A DNA stretch of 64,000 nt from Teretinema zuelzerae (GTDB lineage: Bacteria > Spirochaetota > Spirochaetia > Treponematales > Treponemataceae): assembly GCF_021021555.1 (NCBI RefSeq), contig NZ_JAINWA010000001.1, positions 744,001-808,000 of the forward strand, in the 5' to 3' direction. The notes beneath the pieces are model-generated. The model was not told where the DNA came from. It saw only the letters and a program-made list of their open reading frames with translations, and searched no databases. The translations under genes were made by a program, and so were the position numbers. Shown here in pieces: positions 43,913 through 51,846 of the stretch. Numbering within the stretch: position 1 is the first letter of the stretch; every line of letters starts with the position of its first letter.

Positions 43913-45394
43913 CTAGCAATACAAACGGGACTGATCCTCGCGGAGGCCCTTCATCTGGTCGGAGGGAAAGCCTGCAAGGGGAGAAAAAAGGCGCTGCAAA
44001 ATCTGCAGGTATTGCCGGCACTTATACGCTTCGTGGTGCGATTCGCCCCGGAGCTCGGATTTCTCCCAGCTTTCGAGGTCCGAAAGGCGAAGCTCGACGG
44101 GAAGCGTATGCTGGCTCGTATATACCGCCGTTCCCGCCGCCGGGGGGAAGTCGTCGCCGGAAACAAGAACGTGGCCGCTCTCCGCCGCGTGAACGACCGG
44201 GACCGAAAAATGGAGCTTGCACTGGATCTTGCGGTGGGAATCCGATGAATGAGGGTTAAGGCCGCGGTCGGTCGTCAAACTCCGATAAAACGAGACGGCG
44301 TTGCGCCGCACCGAATCAGCGGAGGCCCCGGTCCGAACTCCCTCCCGGATCGCGAGAGCGTCCATCAAACCCTGCACCGCTTTCTCCATATCCTCGGGGG
44401 AATCGTAGAGGGTTTGGGTGATGGAAGCGGAGGCGGTATTCTCCTGCAGAATGACGCCCTGCTTCTGGAGGGCGTGGAAAAGGGTCAGGGAGTCGTCCCG
44501 GCGCTTGAGAAGGAAGGTCACCGCGACCACATCGCGGATCGACCAGGATTCGCCGGACTCGTCCTTGCCGAGCTTCGCGAACATGCTGGCGGGACTCTTG
44601 AGCCGAGCCTTTATATCGACGAGTTCTACCCGTACGCCGTCGCCGCTGTTGAAAAAAAGAGAGCCGTCCTTTTCCCGCGTTACCGAGGCGCCGAGCTTCG
44701 CGAAAAAGGACGCGCACTGCACATAGGCGCACCGGGCTCCCTCGTCGGCGGGAACCGAGGAGGCAGAGGTCCAGTCATGCCCGAAAAGCCGGGACAGGGG
44801 AATGTTTTTTTCCCGGAAGAAAAAACCGAGAACCGCGAAATTCCGGATATCCTGGCTATCCTCTTCCAGCGACTTCACCAGATGGGAAGCCTTTAAAAGA
44901 GAACAGGCGGCGAACCGCCAGCGGGGCGGAATTGATTCGGGAAAGCCGGAATCTCCCCGGAACAGATCGGGGTACTTGGCTGAAGAGGCGAGAAGAAAGA
45001 GGTTTCTCGGATCGCGTTCGGCGGCTTCCCGGAAAGGGCCGGAGGCGAATAGAGCCCGCAGTTCCGAAAGCCGGGAGAGGGTTTCGCGATAGAGGAGCGT
45101 TCTGGGAGAGTCGATCGACAACAACGGTTGAAGGGAGGAACGCAAATCGGGGATGAAGGACGACAAAATCCAGCTCAGGGCCTGCCTCACATAGGCAGAC
45201 GCCCGTTCCAGTTCTCCGGGAGCGGGCTCGCCCTGTTCAAGGCGGAAGCCCCGGTTTCCCATCATCAGGGAAGCGCCGCGGAGAGCCGCTTCGTAGTCCG
45301 GGCAGCCGCGCAGCAAATACGGAGTCAGTTCAGTCCTGTCCAGGACTGAACCGAAAATATCGTGAAATAGTTCCTGCCCCTCTTCTTCGCCCAT
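43913..45394 (-). CDS. Unknown protein with RelA/SpoT-synthetase-like C-terminal half
   Basis: This 493-residue cytoplasmic protein starts after GGGAGGAATCT. Residues 1-240 are helical and unrecognised. Residues 255-460 follow the order of RSH synthetase motifs. ARLKSPASMFAKL (R264, K266) matches RVKSxxSIxxKL. SIRDVVAVTFLL (D288) matches DDIAGIRI. SDSHRKIQCKLHF (about 385-397) sits where GYRSLHxxV is expected, but the guanine-stacking Tyr is absent. LPVELRLSDLESWEKSE (E434) with HHEAYK matches VEIQIRTxxxxWAxxEHxxxYK. It may therefore be a nucleotidyltransferase-fold relative, active or not. It is monocistronic with its own terminator. Confidence 0.6.
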   Translation of the reverse strand: MGEEEGQELFHDIFGSVLDRTELTPYLLRGCPDYEAALRGASLMMGNRGFRLEQGEPAPGELERASAYVRQALSWILSSFIPDLRSSLQPLLSIDSPRTLLYRETLSRLSELRALFASGPFREAAERDPRNLFLLASSAKYPDLFRGDSGFPESIPPRWRFAACSLLKASHLVKSLEEDSQDIRNFAVLGFFFREKNIPLSRLFGHDWTSASSVPADEGARCAYVQCASFFAKLGASVTREKDGSLFFNSGDGVRVELVDIKARLKSPASMFAKLGKDESGESWSIRDVVAVTFLLKRRDDSLTLFHALQKQGVILQENTASASITQTLYDSPEDMEKAVQGLMDALAIREGVRTGASADSVRRNAVSFYRSLTTDRGLNPHSSDSHRKIQCKLHFSVPVVHAAESGHVLVSGDDFPPAAGTAVYTSQHTLPVELRLSDLESWEKSELRGESHHEAYKCRQYLQILQRLFSPLAGFPSDQMKGLREDQSRLYC

Positions 45395-45445
45395 AGATTC
45401 CTCCCGCGGGCGCCTTTACCCTTCGGGAGTCATATTACTACGCGT

Positions 45446-45481: not shown

Positions 45482-45817
45482 TCAGTGATCGCAGGCGTTC
45501 GCTCCGGTAATCAGCATGCCGGAAAGGAACTGGTTCACGATCTCGTCGGAGGCTCCCGGCTGGGCTCCGGTTATGACGACGATGCCGCGTTCGGTGAACA
45601 GGTCGCGCGCCCGATTTCCCATGCCGCCTGCGATAATGTGGGTGATGCCCTTTTCTCCCAGAAAGCGGGGCAAAAGACCCGGCTCATGGGGAGGGGCTTC
45701 AATATAGCTTTTCCCCGACGCTTTCTTGTCCGCGGAAACTTCGAACACATCGAAACCGGCGCAATGGCCGAAATGAAGATTTAATCGGCCCTCGGCCACT
45801 GGTACAGCTATTCTCAT
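45482..45817 (-). CDS. NifX/ORP-fold protein (MTH1175-like)
   Basis: The 111-residue protein of the dinitrogenase Fe-Mo cofactor-binding superfamily starts MRIAVPVAEGRLNLHFGHCAGFDVFEV. It ends EIVNQFLSGMLITGANACDH, which is typical of the MTH1175/ORP group. These bind metal clusters and work with Mrp-type ATPases rather than nitrogenase here. The start overlaps the mrp stop by 4 bases, showing a tight pair. The operon has a sigma54 promoter at 47.07 kb. Confidence 0.88.
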   Translation of the reverse strand: MRIAVPVAEGRLNLHFGHCAGFDVFEVSADKKASGKSYIEAPPHEPGLLPRFLGEKGITHIIAGGMGNRARDLFTERGIVVITGAQPGASDEIVNQFLSGMLITGANACDH

Positions 45818-46593
45818 ACAAGACTCCTTGTTATTGTTTCATAGACAGCGCTCACCGGCGAGTCCTTGAATTGAGTTACATAGGGAATTCCCGAGTCCCC
45901 GGCTTCTCCGACCGCGGGATCGAGGGGGAGAGCGCCCAGGAAGGGAACTCCGTATTTTTCCGCAAGGCGCTTTCCGCCGCCTTCCTTGAATATGTAGGTA
46001 ATTTTCTTGCACTCGGGGCAGACGAATCCCGACATATTCTCGATGATTCCCGTTACCGGGAGATTCAACTGCTTACAGAAGTTGATGGACTTGCTGACGT
46101 CGACGGAGGCCACATTCTGCGGAGTCGTTACGATGATCGCGCCGTCCGAATTCCCGATGAGCTGGATGACCGAAAGGGGCTCGTCTCCGGTCCCGGGAGG
46201 ACAGTCCACCACGAGGCAGTCGAGCTCTCCCCAGTCTACGTCTTCCAGAAACTGGCGGATTACTCCGTTTTTCATCGGACCCCGCCAGATCACCGGAGCG
46301 TCTTCTGCCTGCAGCATAAAGCCGATGGACATCACCTTGAGATTCGGAATCGAAGGAATCTCCACCGGGAAAATCCGCTCTCCGTCCCCGACTAACCGCT
46401 CATCGCCGAGGCCCAGCATCGTCGGAACGCTCGGTCCGTGAATATCCACGTCCAGAAGTCCCACCTTCTTACCCTGAAGGGCGAGACTCGCCGCAAAGTT
46501 CACCGCGACGGTGCTTTTTCCCACACCGCCCTTTCCTGACATCACGATGTATTTTTTCGCCACGTGATCCATTTTTACCGTTTCAATTGCCAT
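45814..46593 (-). CDS. mrp: Mrp/NBP35-type Fe-S carrier P-loop ATPase
   Basis: This 259-residue ParA/MinD-superfamily ATPase has the deviant Walker A VMSGKGGVGKSTVAVNFA and the switch regions GLLDVDIHGPS and LVVDCPPGTGDEPLS. The cluster-ligating Cys pair is in SGFVCPECKK. It binds and transfers Fe-S clusters. The ribosome site is GGGGAGATAGA. It lies between two NifX-fold genes in the ORP-like cluster, the arrangement known from the Desulfovibrio ORP system. Confidence 0.93.
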   Translation of the reverse strand: MAIETVKMDHVAKKYIVMSGKGGVGKSTVAVNFAASLALQGKKVGLLDVDIHGPSVPTMLGLGDERLVGDGERIFPVEIPSIPNLKVMSIGFMLQAEDAPVIWRGPMKNGVIRQFLEDVDWGELDCLVVDCPPGTGDEPLSVIQLIGNSDGAIIVTTPQNVASVDVSKSINFCKQLNLPVTGIIENMSGFVCPECKKITYIFKEGGGKRLAEKYGVPFLGALPLDPAVGEAGDSGIPYVTQFKDSPVSAVYETITRSLV

Positions 46594-46661
46594 TCTATCT
46601 CCCCAGCCGAATAATCGGCCTTATGTAATCGTGCACAATAAGCAGTAATAACTGCCTTCGC

Positions 46662-47063
46662 TCACTGCGTGCCCCGCAACGCCGGACCAAGACGGTTACC
46701 CTGGCCGCGCCTCCTGCACCGTCTGCGGGGGCAGCCGCATCCGGGCATCGAGAACAGCTCCTGTTCCAAAGTGCCGGCCTTCAGCGCTTCCAGAATCCTG
46801 GCCACCGGCCCCGCCGCGAAGGAAAGCGCTTCTATTCCCTGATCGAGGAGAGCGTCCTCGTATTCGCGCGACAAAGCGCCGCACACCAGATGGGTCACCC
46901 CCCGGCCCGAAAGAAACCGAGCCCGATCATCGGCGTCGAACGAGGGAAAGAGGTCGGGTTCGGGAAGAGGTCCTTCCAATCCGCCTGAAAAAATGAGACA
47001 CCGTTCGGAAACATCGAACACCGGGGCGATTCGCCCGTTCCACACTGATAACGCCAGGGTCAT
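46662..47063 (-). CDS. NifX/ORP-fold protein with Cys/Arg-rich tail
   Basis: The 133-residue product from ATG 47063 starts MTLALSVWNGRIAPVFDVSERCLIF, the standard NifX-fold beginning. It ends MPGCGCPRRRCRRRGQG, the Cys/Arg tail typical of a subset of ORP-cluster proteins. The upstream sigma54 promoter (47074-47089) predicts transcription beginning at the first base of the ATG, consistent with the lack of a Shine-Dalgarno. It is the first gene of an operon that continues to mrp. Confidence 0.82.
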   Translation of the reverse strand: MTLALSVWNGRIAPVFDVSERCLIFSGGLEGPLPEPDLFPSFDADDRARFLSGRGVTHLVCGALSREYEDALLDQGIEALSFAAGPVARILEALKAGTLEQELFSMPGCGCPRRRCRRRGQGNRLGPALRGTQ

Positions 47064-47073
47064 ACTCTGATAT

Positions 47074-47089
47074 AGCAAATACCGTGCCA
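47074..47089 (-). promoter_or_regulatory. Sigma54 (-24/-12) promoter of the NifX-Mrp operon
   Basis: The minus strand reads TGGCACGGTATTTGCT, which meets every conserved position of TGGCACG-N4-TTGCW. The predicted start of transcription is 47063, the A of the start codon. A TTGCA-N4-TGCAA-like site is centred 83.5 bases upstream. Confidence 0.85.
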
Positions 47090-47139
47090 TGCGTGCGGCA
47101 TGGAACAGGAAGAGAAAACCATCTCTATAAGAGGAAGGA

Positions 47140-47153
47140 TTGCACGACTGGAA
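47140..47153. promoter_or_regulatory. Predicted activator site (UAS) for the NifX-Mrp sigma54 promoter
   Basis: TTGCACGACTGGAA matches TTGCA-N4-TGCAA in 9 of 10 positions. It is centred at -83.5 from the predicted start. The same distance is seen at the other sigma54 promoter (51333-51346). Confidence 0.6.
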
Positions 47154-47193
47154 GGAAATTGATTGCAATAACGCACGATCAATGAACTCTTTA

Positions 47194-47207
47194 TTGCATC
47201 TCTGCAA
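47194..47207. promoter_or_regulatory. Perfect TTGCA-N4-TGCAA operator between divergent genes
   Basis: TTGCATCTCTGCAA is a perfect copy of the palindrome found beside the sigma54 activator gene. It lies between the divergent NifX-Mrp operon and the C_GCAxxG_C_C gene and could serve both. Confidence 0.7.
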
Positions 47208-47275: not shown

Positions 47276-47734
47276 ATGAACCACGGAGAAAAAGCGGTAG
47301 ATTTCTTTTGCAGGGGCTTTAACTGCGCCCAGTCGACGGCTGCGGCATTCGCCGAAGAGGCCGGAATGGATGAAAAAACAATCTGCACGATGATGGCGGG
47401 TTTCGGCGGAGGAGTCGGAGGATCGCGCGAAATGTGCGGCGCGGCGACCGGCATGGTATGGGCGCTGGGATTGTTTTTCGGAGACTACGATCCTCACGAC
47501 ACGGAAGCTAAAACGCGGCTCTATCGGACGGTCCGCGAAGGAATCCACGAGTTCACTGAACTGTTCGGAACAACCTGCTGCAGGGAGCTGCTCGCGAAGG
47601 CCGGATGCCTGCCCAAGCCCGATCCGTCGGTGCGGAACGCAGAATACTATTCAAAACGTCCCTGCGCGCACTTTGTACAGGCCGCCGCGGAAATCGCCGA
47701 CAGGTTGAAAAGAGAGCAGATCACGGCCGGTTGA
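47276..47734 (+). CDS. C_GCAxxG_C_C family redox protein
   Basis: The 152-residue protein has the family signature spread over [11 protein letters not shown], then [25 protein letters not shown] and [12 protein letters not shown]. All the named Cys positions are present. These proteins, frequent in anaerobes, are thought to bind a redox cofactor or Fe-S cluster. It is divergent from the NifX-Mrp operon and shares its operator region. Its last 14 bases overlap the 3' end of the sigma54 activator gene on the other strand. Confidence 0.9.
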
Positions 47735-49070
47735 TGCCGTACTTTTTCATTTTTCGCCAGAGGGTTGCCTTGTCGATGTCGAGGGCCTGGGCGGTACGGG
47801 CGCGGTTCCATCCGAAGTTGTCCAGGGCCGCGAGAATGCAGTCCCGTTCGGCTTCATCGCGGACCCGCAGGACTCCTGCTCCCGCCTCGCCTGAAAGGGC
47901 GTCCTTCGCGCAGACGACCGGAGACTGAAGCTCCGGCGGAAGCAGATCCTTGTCGATCTCCGGCGCCTTGGCGAGAACGACCATCCGCTCGACCACGTTC
48001 TCGAGTTCGCGGATGTTGCCCGGCCACGAATACGCGTAAAAGCGCGAGAAGACCTCGGGTGAAAACCCGTCTATCGTACGGTTCATCCTGACCGCGAACG
48101 TATTCAGAAAACCCGCGGCGAGATCCGGAATGTCCTCTCTCCTCTCCCTCAGCGGGGGAAGAACGAGGCTGATCACGTTTATCCGGTAATATAAGTCGCG
48201 GCGGAAGCTTCCATCGTTCGCCATGTTCGCAAGATCGCGGTTCGTAGCCGTTACGAGCCGAACGTCCGTGCGAACCGGTTTGGTTCCGCCCAGGGGCTCG
48301 TACTCGCGCTCCTGCAAAACGCGCAGGAGCTTCACCTGCAACGAGGCGGGAATATCGCCGATTTCATCGAGAAACAGAGTGCCTCCTTCGGCCAGAGCGA
48401 AGCGGCCGGGTTTATCCCGGTCGGCTCCGGTGAAGGCTCCCTTGCGGAAGCCGAATAATTCGGATTCAAGAAGGCTTTCGGGAATGGCGCTGCAGTTCAC
48501 CGCCACGAAGGGGCCGTCCCTGCGGGGGCTGAGCGAATGAAGAGTCCGGGCCAAGACTTCCTTTCCGGTTCCCGTCTCTCCCTGAATCAGCACTGACGCG
48601 GTCGACTCGGCGACGGCGGGAAGCATTCCGAGAAGCGGTTCCATCGAAGGGCTTTTGCTCCGGAACAGGGGATTCGGACCGCGGCTCGCCAGCTCCTTGC
48701 GGAGATCCTCGAGCTCGCTCAAATCGCGGAAGGTTTCCGCCCCTCCGATCACCGCCCCGGAGGCGTCGGTCAGCAGGGCGGTCGAAACGCTGATGGGGAC
48801 CCGCTTTCCTTTTTTGGTGACGCAGTATCCCGTACGGTCGATGAGCGGCTTGCCCGTCTTCATGGTCCGCTTAAGCGGGCAGGCCGATTCGCACATATTC
48901 GAACGGAATACTTCAAAGCAGTATCGGCCGACCGCCTGGCCGCGGGGCACGCCGGTGATCCGCTCGGCGGCCCGGTTGAAAGAGCTGATCTTCCACTCTT
49001 CGTCCACCGTGAACACGCCGTCGGATATGCTTTCCAGAATCCGGGCTGTAAAAGCTTCGTCTGCAATCAT
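47721..49070 (-). CDS. Sigma54-dependent transcriptional activator (PAS-AAA+-Fis)
   Basis: ATG 49070 gives about 449 residues. An N-terminal PAS domain ([20 protein letters not shown]) contains a [16 protein letters not shown] segment with a CxxxC pair, which suits redox or metal sensing. The AAA+ domain has Walker [14 protein letters not shown], the sigma54-contact loop [10 protein letters not shown], Walker [14 protein letters not shown], and an arginine-finger region. The C-terminus is a Fis-type HTH ([27 protein letters not shown]). It lies inside the ORP-like cluster. Two TTGCA-N4-TGCAA motifs cover its promoter, so autoregulation is likely. In Desulfovibrio an equivalent regulator controls the ORP operons. 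Confidence 0.93.
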
Positions 49071-49072
49071 AA

Positions 49073-49106
49073 TTGCAATATTACAACGTCTATTGCAATT
49101 CTGCAA
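49073..49106. promoter_or_regulatory. Tandem operators over the activator gene promoter
   Basis: TTGCAATATTACAA (49073-49086, 9/10) and TTGCAATTCTGCAA (49093-49106, perfect) are 20 bases apart, about two helical turns. The minus-strand extended -10 TGT-AATATT (49077-49085) lies inside the first site and would start transcription at ATG 49070, which has no ribosome site. Binding here should repress the activator's own gene. Confidence 0.65.
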
Positions 49107-49992
49107 CCAACACGTCCCACAACGAGGCCGCCGCCTGCGAGGCCGGACACGAGGGATTGTATTCGATGATGCTTTTTCCCGCGATCTGTGCGCGCGTAAC
49201 AGACGGATCCCAGGGCATCGTACCGAGGAAGGGAACCGAGTTCCGGCCGCACCACGAGCGTATTTCGTCGCTTTGAGCGGGGTTGATGTCCGCCTTGTTC
49301 ACCGCGACGAAAAATCTGACGCCCAGATGCTTCGCGAGAGACGCGACCCGCTCAAGATCGTGGAGGCCCGATACAGTCGGCTCGGTTACGACGAGGGCCG
49401 CGTCGGCTCCCGTGATCGAAGCGATTACCGGACAGCCTGTTCCCGGAGATCCGTCGACGATGATCCAGTCTGCGTTTTTCTCTCCGGCGATCCGCTTCGC
49501 ATCCTTGCGCACCGAGGTGACGAGCTTGCCCGAATTCTCGGCGCGTATGTCGAGTGCGGCATGGACGAGCACGCCGAAGCGGGTGTTCGACACATACTGT
49601 TCGCCGCATCTGCGGTCCGGAAAATCGATCGCGTGAGCGGGGCAAAAGCGCACGCAGACGCCGCAGCCTTCGCAGGAGCCTTCCTCGACTACGCAGCCGG
49701 CGGCTGCTGAAAGCGAAATGGCGTCGAATCGGCAAAGCGCGGCGCAATCGGCGCATCCGCCGTCCTGGCCGGTCGAAATGCACTTGAGCGGATCGATCCG
49801 CGCTACATGGCCGCTGATGAACTCGCGCTTTTCCTGCACCTCGGGATTAAAGAGAAGATGCAAATCCGCCGCATCCACATCGCAGTCCGCAAACACGGCA
49901 GACCCGGATCGGGACGCGAGAGACGCGATTGCGGCGGTCATGCTCGTTTTTCCGGTGCCGCCCTTGCCGCTGATGATTATCAATTCTTTCAT
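49090..49992 (-). CDS. MinD-type ATPase with inserted ferredoxin domain (ORP complex type), second copy
   Basis: The product of about 300 residues has the P-loop [18 protein letters not shown]. Two 4Fe-4S motifs are inserted at about residues 60-120 (the first Cys-rich with CADCAALC, then [12 protein letters not shown]). The switch region is [18 protein letters not shown]. This MinD/ferredoxin fusion is characteristic of Orp ATPases and MinD-like Fe-S proteins of strict anaerobes. It overlaps the sister gene upstream by 4 bases, and the regulator gene begins 20 bases downstream. Confidence 0.9.
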
Positions 49993-50882
49993 TGTACTCC
50001 TCCGGATGCCGGCCGCGCACTGGTTTTCATGCGCACAGCCAAAGCGGAAAACACGCTCCGGTATTCGGGCGCCGACTCGACCAGGGGTTGCCCGCGCGAA
50101 TAGCCTTCCGCGATGCGGCGGTCTTCCGGGATTTGAAGCAGCAAATCGATGCCTTCCCGTCCGCAATACCGCACGACGCGGTCGTCGCCTGAATCGCTCC
50201 GGTTCACGATTACGCCGAAGGGAATGCCCATTTTGCGCACCGTCTTCACCGCGAGATCCAGATCGTGAAGGCCGAAGGGAGTCGGTTCGGTCACCAGTAC
50301 TACATAGTCGGCGCCGGTTACCGCGGTTCCCATCGGACAAGAAGTTCCCGGCGGCGAATCGATGATTTCAAAAACATCCACAGCGCCGGCTTCCTGTTCG
50401 GCGGCCGAACGGTCTTTTACCGCGCGGATGACCGGAGGGGACATCGCGTTTCCAATGGACAGAAGGCCCTGAATGATCCGGAGGGAACTTTCCCCTGCGC
50501 GCGAAACGGAGGCGCAGGCAAGCGTTCCGATTGCGACCGGTTCTTCGCGGATCGCGTCGACCGGGCATACGAGGGCGCAGCCGCCGCAGGAATGGCACAA
50601 CTCCGGGAACACCATCACGGTCGTGCCGATGTGGACGATCGCGTTGAATTCGCAAAACCGAGCGCACTCGCCGCAGGAAGTACACGCGCTTTCATCGATT
50701 ACCGGCACGGGAACCGTAACCGCGGATTCCTCGATTCCGTTCAGTTTCAGAAAAAGGGCGGCGTTCGGCTCTTCGACATCGCAGTCGAGAAGGGCCGCAC
50801 GGCCCGGAGCGGAGAGGGCAAGAGAGACGGCGACGGTTGTCTTTCCCGTCCCGCCCTTGCCCGAAGCGACAGCTATTCTCAT
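49989..50882 (-). CDS. MinD-type ATPase with inserted ferredoxin domain (ORP complex type), first copy
   Basis: The 297-residue product from ATG 50882 has the P-loop [18 protein letters not shown], then two 4Fe-4S motifs (CTSCGECARFCEF and CHSCGGCALVCP) between the P-loop and the nucleotide switch IIDSPPGTSCPMGTAV. It is a paralogue of the next gene, and the two probably form a heterodimer. It overlaps the NifX-like gene upstream (ATGA). The three genes are driven by the sigma54 promoter at 51266-51281. Confidence 0.9.
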   Translation of the reverse strand: MRIAVASGKGGTGKTTVAVSLALSAPGRAALLDCDVEEPNAALFLKLNGIEESAVTVPVPVIDESACTSCGECARFCEFNAIVHIGTTVMVFPELCHSCGGCALVCPVDAIREEPVAIGTLACASVSRAGESSLRIIQGLLSIGNAMSPPVIRAVKDRSAAEQEAGAVDVFEIIDSPPGTSCPMGTAVTGADYVVLVTEPTPFGLHDLDLAVKTVRKMGIPFGVIVNRSDSGDDRVVRYCGREGIDLLLQIPEDRRIAEGYSRGQPLVESAPEYRSVFSALAVRMKTSARPASGGVQ

Positions 50883-51241
50883 ACCCAGTGGCCCTCGACG
50901 TCGGCGTCGCTGATCTGCTTGAGCTCGCCCTTCTTCCATGCCTGATAAACGTCGGCCACCGTTCCTCCGGGGGCAAGATAGACGGGAACTCCCGCGGCCG
51001 AAAGCACCTTGAAAGCCTTCGGTCCGGTATGTCCCGAGACGCAAGCCCGGGCTCCGGCGTTCACAACGTGCTGAGCCGCCTGGATTCCGGCGCCCTGGGC
51101 CGCTTCCAGGTTCTGGGTATTGTCCAGGGCGGTGAACGAATCGTCCTCCGTGTCGAACACGATAAAAGCGGCGGCGCGGCCGAACCGAGAATCCATTTGA
51201 GAATCAGGAATTTTTCCCGAAGAGGTAATAGCGATTTTCAT
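50879..51241 (-). CDS. NifX/ORP-fold protein, first gene of the ATPase operon
   Basis: The 120-residue product from ATG 51241 follows TTGGAGGCTTTT. It starts MKIAITSSGKIPDSQMDSRFGRAAAFIVFD and shows GARACVSGHTGPKAFKVL, a standard NifX/ORP fold that can bind a metal cluster. It is the third such protein in the cluster. The predicted sigma54 start (51255) gives a 14-base leader. Confidence 0.88.
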   Translation of the reverse strand: MKIAITSSGKIPDSQMDSRFGRAAAFIVFDTEDDSFTALDNTQNLEAAQGAGIQAAQHVVNAGARACVSGHTGPKAFKVLSAAGVPVYLAPGGTVADVYQAWKKGELKQISDADVEGHWV

Positions 51242-51363: not shown

Positions 51364-51846
51364 ATGGACACTATTTTTCTATACGGCATCGCATTGCTGC
51401 TTTTTATCCTGTCTTTCGCCGCGGACCGGCAGAAGACGAAAAAAGCGTTCAGCAAGGGATTGAAAGCATTGGAGGGAATACTGCCGCAATTCATCGCGGT
51501 AGTCGCGCTGATTGCGATCATGCTCTCCCTTCTCGAACCGCAAACCATTTCACGCTTCATCGGCAGCGACTCCGGTCCCCTCGGCGTAATCCTTGCGGGC
51601 CTCATCGGGTCGATCACCCTGATTCCCGGCTTCGTCGCTTTTCCCCTCGCGGGAGAACTGCTGAAAAATGGTGCGGGAACGCTTCAGATCGCAACCTTTG
51701 TTTCCGCTCTGATGATGGTGGGAGTCATCACGCTGCCGGTGGAAATCTCGTACTTCGGCAAGCGCGCGGCAGTGTTGAGAAACCTGCTCGCCCTCGCGTT
51801 TTCCTTCGCGGCGGCCTTTTTCATCGCATGGGCGGCGGGAATATGA
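51364..51846 (+). CDS. Half-size predicted permease (ArsP/DUF318-like), first of pair
   Basis: The 160-residue protein starts after AGAGGGGGACCCG. It has four to five helices. The recurring permease motif is SRFIGSDSGPLGVILAGLIGS followed by ITLIPGFVAFPLAGELLKNG. It resembles half of the PF03773 permease family. The stop overlaps the start of the second permease (ATGA), so the two probably assemble as one transporter. It is divergent from the sigma54-driven ATPase operon. The substrate is unknown. Confidence 0.75.
   Translation: MDTIFLYGIALLLFILSFAADRQKTKKAFSKGLKALEGILPQFIAVVALIAIMLSLLEPQTISRFIGSDSGPLGVILAGLIGSITLIPGFVAFPLAGELLKNGAGTLQIATFVSALMMVGVITLPVEISYFGKRAAVLRNLLALAFSFAAAFFIAWAAGI

Follow-up and report, generated by a model that had tools for sequence, protein, structure and literature searches.

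The 2011 census of RelA/SpoT-type (RSH) enzymes names only long RSHs, small alarmone synthetases (SASs) and SAHs (PMC3153485). In the synthetase RelP of S. aureus (SaRelP), R78 and R112 stack on the adenine, K80, S84, K88 and R91 hold the phosphates, D107 and E174 bind Mg, and Y151 of the G-loop is critical for guanosine binding, as in all ppGpp synthetases (PMC5794853). Furthermore, non-canonical acceptors are known in the toxSAS/CapRel/FaRel2 group (PMC11559606). Nitrogen has been tied to these enzymes through the ordinary members: NtrC drives relA (PMC4066584) and PTSNtr acts on SpoT (PMC4848567), both being precedents for control of ppGpp by N stress.

The gene analyzed here is chromosomal in Teretinema zuelzerae (contig C1) and lies in a 64,000-nucleotide stretch of that genome, hereafter the window. 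Its reading frame, first called from the letters alone at the correct coordinates, is a minus-strand ORF of 493 amino acids starting with ATG (Table 1). Directly upstream and co-directional with it, positions 45482-47207 of the minus strand encode a PF02579 (Nitro_FeMo-Co) protein and an Mrp/NUBPL ATPase whose frames overlap by 4 bases, and this pair is itself preceded by a 181-aa ORF to which no family was given. Elsewhere in the window, a PAS/sigma-54 activator (47721-49106) adjoins two overlapping minus-strand ORFs whose products are MinD-type ATPases carrying ferredoxin-domain insertions (49090-51044), and positions 51364-51846 of the plus strand encode a weakly ArsP_1-like permease, with a long ORF behind it in the same orientation (region to 52388).

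Table 1. Features of the gene and its product, in window coordinates.
Feature	Position	Strand	Basis
Gene for the 493-aa RSH-fold protein	43913..45394	minus	ORF, ATG start; orthologues found
GGAGG, Shine-Dalgarno-like, 5 bases ahead of the ATG	45400..45404	minus	sequence
N-terminal helical domain, residues 1-215, common to TIGR04552	44750..45394	minus	model; hhalign
RSH-type synthetase (nucleotidyltransferase-fold) domain, residues 216-493	43916..44749	minus	model, Foldseek, VIA-align, profiles
R264-L-K266-S-P-A-S270-M-F-A-K274, counterpart of SaRelP R78/K80/S84/K88 (ATP adenine, phosphates)	44573..44605	minus	49/49; hhalign register
I-R-D288-V-V-A-V-T293, Mg Asp (SaRelP D107) kept, R112 replaced by Thr	44516..44539	minus	alignment, conservation
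Helical stretch, residues 312-386, invariant S322, Q327, T328, N380	44237..44461	minus	model, conservation
H387-R-K389-I-Q391-C392-K393, G-loop strand (full motif H-R-K-I-Q-C-K-L-H-F)	44216..44236	minus	alignment, conservation
V-E434-L-R436-L-S-D439, E434 = Mg Glu (SaRelP E174)	44078..44098	minus	alignment, conservation
H453-H454-E-A-Y457-K458-x-R460-Q461, counterpart of Rel 'SHWxYK' with family-specific R-Q	44012..44038	minus	alignment

A first-pass annotation had proposed that the protein is a remote RelA/SpoT-type nucleotidyltransferase, and this proposal is supported both by the predicted fold and by independent sequence evidence. A model devoid of the RSH synthetase fold had been set beforehand as the refuting test; the AlphaFold2 model built from 49 family sequences (pLDDT 85.3, pTM 0.81) has that fold. 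Using Foldseek against the PDB, the first 21 matches were all RSH/SAS synthetases (E 0.02-0.6 for the whole chain), many of them at a probability of 0.97-1.00 and the small synthetases at 0.84-1.0, and unrelated proteins appeared only from E 1.4 on. VIA-align ranked SAS1/RelQ of B. subtilis highest (Z 8.5 over 168 residues at 3.7 A), followed by SAS2, RelSeq, RelA and Rel, so that the structures matched best are RelQ and RelP (SAS1 and SAS2; Z 8.5 to 8.0). DNA polymerase beta, which shares the wider fold class, came lower with a Z of about 6, as did CapRel (Z 5.8). For a predicted chain of 493 residues compared through one of its domains, a Z of about 8 is, as expected, middling when taken alone, and the fold claim consequently rests on the uniform list of matches and its accord with the sequence evidence, not on Z alone.

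Since the 493-aa protein has zero matches in a Pfam scan, TGS and ACT domains being likewise absent, its link to RSHs runs via its family and the TIGR04552 family. PF04607 (RelA_SpoT) matches 45 of the 49 family members below its threshold (best E 4.5e-5), and a PDB sequence search with either the protein or its alignment returned nothing meaningful. Profile-profile comparison was also put forward with the initial proposal: hhalign matched the family domain to a spirochaete SAS profile at E 1.4e-4 and TIGR04552 to Rel at E 5.8e-8, and a profile combining the two families matched both Rel and SAS at E 7e-7 to 2e-6, whereas reversed decoys reached only E 0.19 to 0.58. With Rel as the sole target, the family alignment gave a weak match (E 0.007), yet in the right register, and this was resolved by the SAS and TIGR04552 profiles. 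The TIGR04552 model, run over 198 genomes of the spirochaete phylum, also found proteins that translate as ordinary Rel. Altogether, these data demonstrate that the 493-aa family shares descent with the RSH superfamily and has its synthetase fold.

This analysis also refines the initial proposal: rather than standing alone as a remote homologue, the protein falls into one clade with TIGR04552/TIGR04562, two families of unknown function. Both NCBIfam models match residues 227-470 at E 6e-16, and hhalign aligns the family with TIGR04552 at E 4.6e-16 over 305 columns, N-terminal domain included. Common to these families and ours are K266, S270, K274, D288, N380, E434, D439, H454, Y457-K458 and R460-Q461. 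Because the curated cut-offs of TIGR04552 and TIGR04562 are not met (58.7 versus 125 and 58.6 versus 140 bits, respectively), we consider the 493-aa family as their sister and not as a member. Proteins of the two curated families are shorter, with about 350 aa versus 493 aa, and in TIGR04552 the G-loop Tyr, the E-x-Q and an Arg at Asp+5 are retained, whereas R264 has no counterpart. A tree of the catalytic region, used for separation only because its branches are long, groups the family with TIGR04552 in one clade apart from Rel and SAS. At the level of sequence, the 493-aa family and TIGR04552/TIGR04562 thereby form a clade separate from long RSHs and small alarmone synthetases. TIGR04552 is present in 90 of 140 Myxococcota genomes (e.g. 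L129-L158), nearly always in single copy, as an RSH homologue that is uncharacterized as well.

The motifs quoted in the first-pass annotation all occur in the protein in the order given there, and R-x-K-x3-S-x3-K followed by D and then E has the order and spacing of RSH enzymes, with roles as described for SaRelP (PMC5794853). The equivalents of SaRelP R78, K80, S84, K88, D107 and E174 are R264, K266, S270, K274, D288 and E434, each found in 49/49 members, so that the phosphate motif, the Mg Asp and the Mg Glu of RelQ and RelP are all conserved. These equivalences derive from alignment and spacing only, without residue-level structural superposition. The whole invariant set comprises R264, K266, S270, K274, D288, K389, Q391, K393, E434, R436, D439, W443, H454 and Y457 and, as the aligned members (n=49, mean column identity 67%) share only 41-58% identity with the 493-aa protein, it is not due to chance. 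W443 follows V-E434-L-R-L-S-D439 and precedes H453-H-E-A-Y-K458, a motif resembling the 'SHxxYK' found after the catalytic Glu of long RSHs, to which the sub-threshold PF04607 matches also point.

The base-binding residues, in contrast to the metal and phosphate ones, are altered. The annotation had claimed that the guanine-stacking Tyr is lost, and the position of SaRelP Y151 is indeed occupied by His (H387) in 47/49 members and by Gln in 2/49. It had missed that the second adenine-stacking Arg (SaRelP R112, at Asp+5) is an invariant Thr293 (49/49); furthermore, the Gln found in RSHs at Glu+2 is Arg436 in 49/49. With respect to RelQ and RelP, the family thus has Thr for the second adenine Arg and His for the guanine Tyr, and it adds an N-terminal domain as well as a helical stretch ahead of the G-loop strand. 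Located after the second strand and ahead of the G-loop strand, this stretch (residues 312-386) takes the place of the R-x-K-D-Y-I..P-K segment that leads to the G-loop in RSHs. Judging from the residues kept and replaced, the handling of phosphate and metal seems intact and both base pockets seem altered. With two of the residues by which ppGpp synthetases bind the bases substituted, the acceptor or substrate cannot be named, and since neither the presence of both adenine Arg residues nor that of the G-loop Tyr is fulfilled, the name 'ppGpp synthetase' is unsuitable. The substrate likely differs from that of ppGpp synthetases, although no substrate or activity data are available.

As regards the N-terminal domain, the annotation had stated that it is not an HD hydrolase, and this candidate is ruled out at the sequence level: Pfam detects no HD family in the N-terminal domains of the 49 members, and hhalign yields no meaningful match between the domain and the Rel HD region (E 0.27, 8 columns). 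The domain is shared instead with TIGR04552 (E 1.4e-7). Lack of an HD signature and of Pfam TGS/ACT domains distinguishes the family from long RSHs, canonical Rel being encoded by a separate gene. The isolated domain was modelled as helical with a pLDDT of 83 and found no significant structural match, the best Foldseek E (1.1) and the best VIA Z (6.8, ZapD) being at noise level for helical models. Weak TPR_17 matches in 19/49 members (best E 2e-4) were not accepted as a domain.

Full-length relatives are found in 7 of the 59 genomes of the order of T. zuelzerae, this species being counted, and in few spirochaetes outside it. Altogether, 53 loci were located in named genomes of Spirochaetales, Nitrospirota, Methylococcaceae, Syntrophobacterales, Myxococcales, Deferribacteres and one Fibrobacter MAG. 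A defense, toxin-antitoxin or mobile origin is unsupported: PADLOC gave no match for the 493-aa protein, and searches of a plasmid collection and of viral contigs returned no relatives of the family. No conserved partner gene adjoins the family loci either, although all these absences are not proof against a toxSAS/CapRel role.

The occurrence of the gene is linked to nitrogen fixation in two phyla. In the spirochaete sample, nifH (above its curated cut-off) is present in 6/7 gene-bearing versus 5/52 other genomes (Fisher p 7e-5), and in Nitrospirota (threshold E <= 1e-60) in 13/16 versus 61/229 (Fisher p 2e-5). These p values ignore shared ancestry, without phylogenetic correction, and most of the genomes are incomplete MAGs; in the genus of T. 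zuelzerae alone, the comparison (5/6 versus 2-3/6) is not significant. Of 50 gene-bearing genomes, nifH passes its cut-off in 29 and is represented by fragments in another three, leaving about a third without detected nifH, two records designated as chromosomes among them.

Gene neighborhoods point in the same direction. Near the gene, tblastn detects amtB, glnK, glnA, glnD or nif genes at 14/53 loci (13 clear ones and a weak GlnA-like match at L024) versus 1/60 control stretches drawn from gene-bearing genomes (p 1e-4); the names of these neighbors come from sequence and were confirmed between loci with tblastn and without a family scan. Within 6 kb of the gene, amtB, mostly with glnK, is present at L019, L021, L026, L044, L049, L050, L053, L061, L062 and L064, glnA lies upstream on the same strand at L062 (80 bases) and L044, nifI1-nifI2 occur with nitrogenase genes at L018, L020 and L050, and glnD is found at L033. 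As arrangements vary from locus to locus (upstream, downstream, differing partners), this neighborhood is not one inherited block. In T. zuelzerae itself, neither nif nor glnK adjoins the gene; contig C3 carries nifH together with its two adjacent PII genes as well as all other PII genes. The linkage, which is new to this work, could reflect lifestyle instead of function.

The reading that in our opinion best accommodates these observations, and to which we give somewhat better than even credence, is a chromosomal, nitrogen-status-linked pyrophosphokinase of RSH fold with a non-canonical acceptor, its activity, substrate and role all being inferred. Pyrophosphate would be moved from ATP (or another NTP) onto an acceptor bound unlike GDP/GTP in ppGpp synthetases, which may be a different nucleotide or the end of a macromolecule. 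The N-terminal domain would gate this activity, and the enzyme would be used upon the switch to nitrogen fixation or under nitrogen limitation, working alongside the ordinary Rel stringent response encoded by the same genomes. Given the nif and ammonium-uptake neighbors in many bacteria, the protein possibly serves as an alarm enzyme specific to nitrogen.

The presence of glnK, nifI1/nifI2, glnA and glnD among the neighbors would also fit an enzyme that modifies a macromolecule of the nitrogen circuit, either by tRNA pyrophosphorylation (cf. FaRel2/CapRel) or by modification of PII or glutamine synthetase analogous to that by GlnD/GlnE. RSH-fold enzymes acting on tRNA are known (PMC11559606), and the altered pocket for a nucleotide acceptor is compatible with this possibility, which we nevertheless hold to be unlikely: RSH chemistry transfers PPi and not NMP, the second Asp of the D-x-D nucleotidyltransferase motif is missing, there is no direct evidence of a protein target, and no antitoxin-like partner, defense match, or plasmid or viral spread is seen. 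The family has the same fold as toxSAS/CapRel/FaRel2 and differs from this group in being chromosomal and nitrogen-linked, with no conserved partner and no PADLOC, plasmid or viral-contig match; the context points to nitrogen metabolism over immunity or toxin-antitoxin use of the CapRel/toxSAS type.

An ordinary (p)ppGpp synthetase, with ATP as donor, GDP/GTP as acceptor, His387 in place of the stacking Tyr and R436 in place of the adenine Arg, appears less probable still. Every phosphate- and metal-binding residue is kept, a His is able to stack on bases, and the loss of an Arg at Asp+5 with the gain of one at Glu+2 has the appearance of an exchange between neighboring strands, although compensation by R436 is only an inference. 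However, the R..KDYI..PK..GY approach to the G-loop is gone, with a helical stretch in its place in the model, and the missing Tyr is the one termed critical for guanosine in all ppGpp synthetases (PMC5794853). Moreover, T. zuelzerae also has genes for a long Rel and for a second RSH bearing PF04607, as do nearly all the relatives, so that the 493-aa protein is an addition; genomes that already own Rel, and usually a second RSH too, argue against another enzyme of this kind. The second RSH (about 440 aa, RelA_SpoT domain, TPR-like C-terminus; G000:C1:123043-123417, L010, and relatives) is conserved in nearly all sampled spirochaetes.

Least plausible of all is a catalytically inactive RSH-fold sensor that would bind a nucleotide and regulate partners via its N-terminal domain, for although the base-contacting residues are changed and the N-terminal domain is large, conserved and of unknown fold, R264, K266, S270, K274, D288 and E434 are invariant in 49/49 members across several phyla, and the metal-binding pair is usually lost in dead paralogues.

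Our literature search found no paper linking TIGR04552/TIGR04562 or the 493-aa family to RSHs or to nif, but its coverage is incomplete and priority remains uncertain; the one mention of TIGR04552 found was incidental, a small indel in an evolved Bdellovibrio line with no function given. Beyond the nitrogen-linked pyrophosphokinase proposed above, we tentatively suggest, without considering it the likelier outcome, that the family represents a third RelA/SpoT-type pyrophosphokinase branch, in Nitrospirota, Spirochaetota and methanotrophs, that would make an unknown nucleotide, or modify a macromolecule of the nitrogen circuit, as a dedicated signal of nitrogen limitation and fixation. Two uncharacterized and widespread protein families now have an assigned fold and active site and a chemistry that can be tested, which broadens the RSH superfamily past ppGpp synthetases and toxSAS. 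Should the nitrogen link hold, nitrogen fixation would be tied to growth control by a dedicated RSH-type signal.
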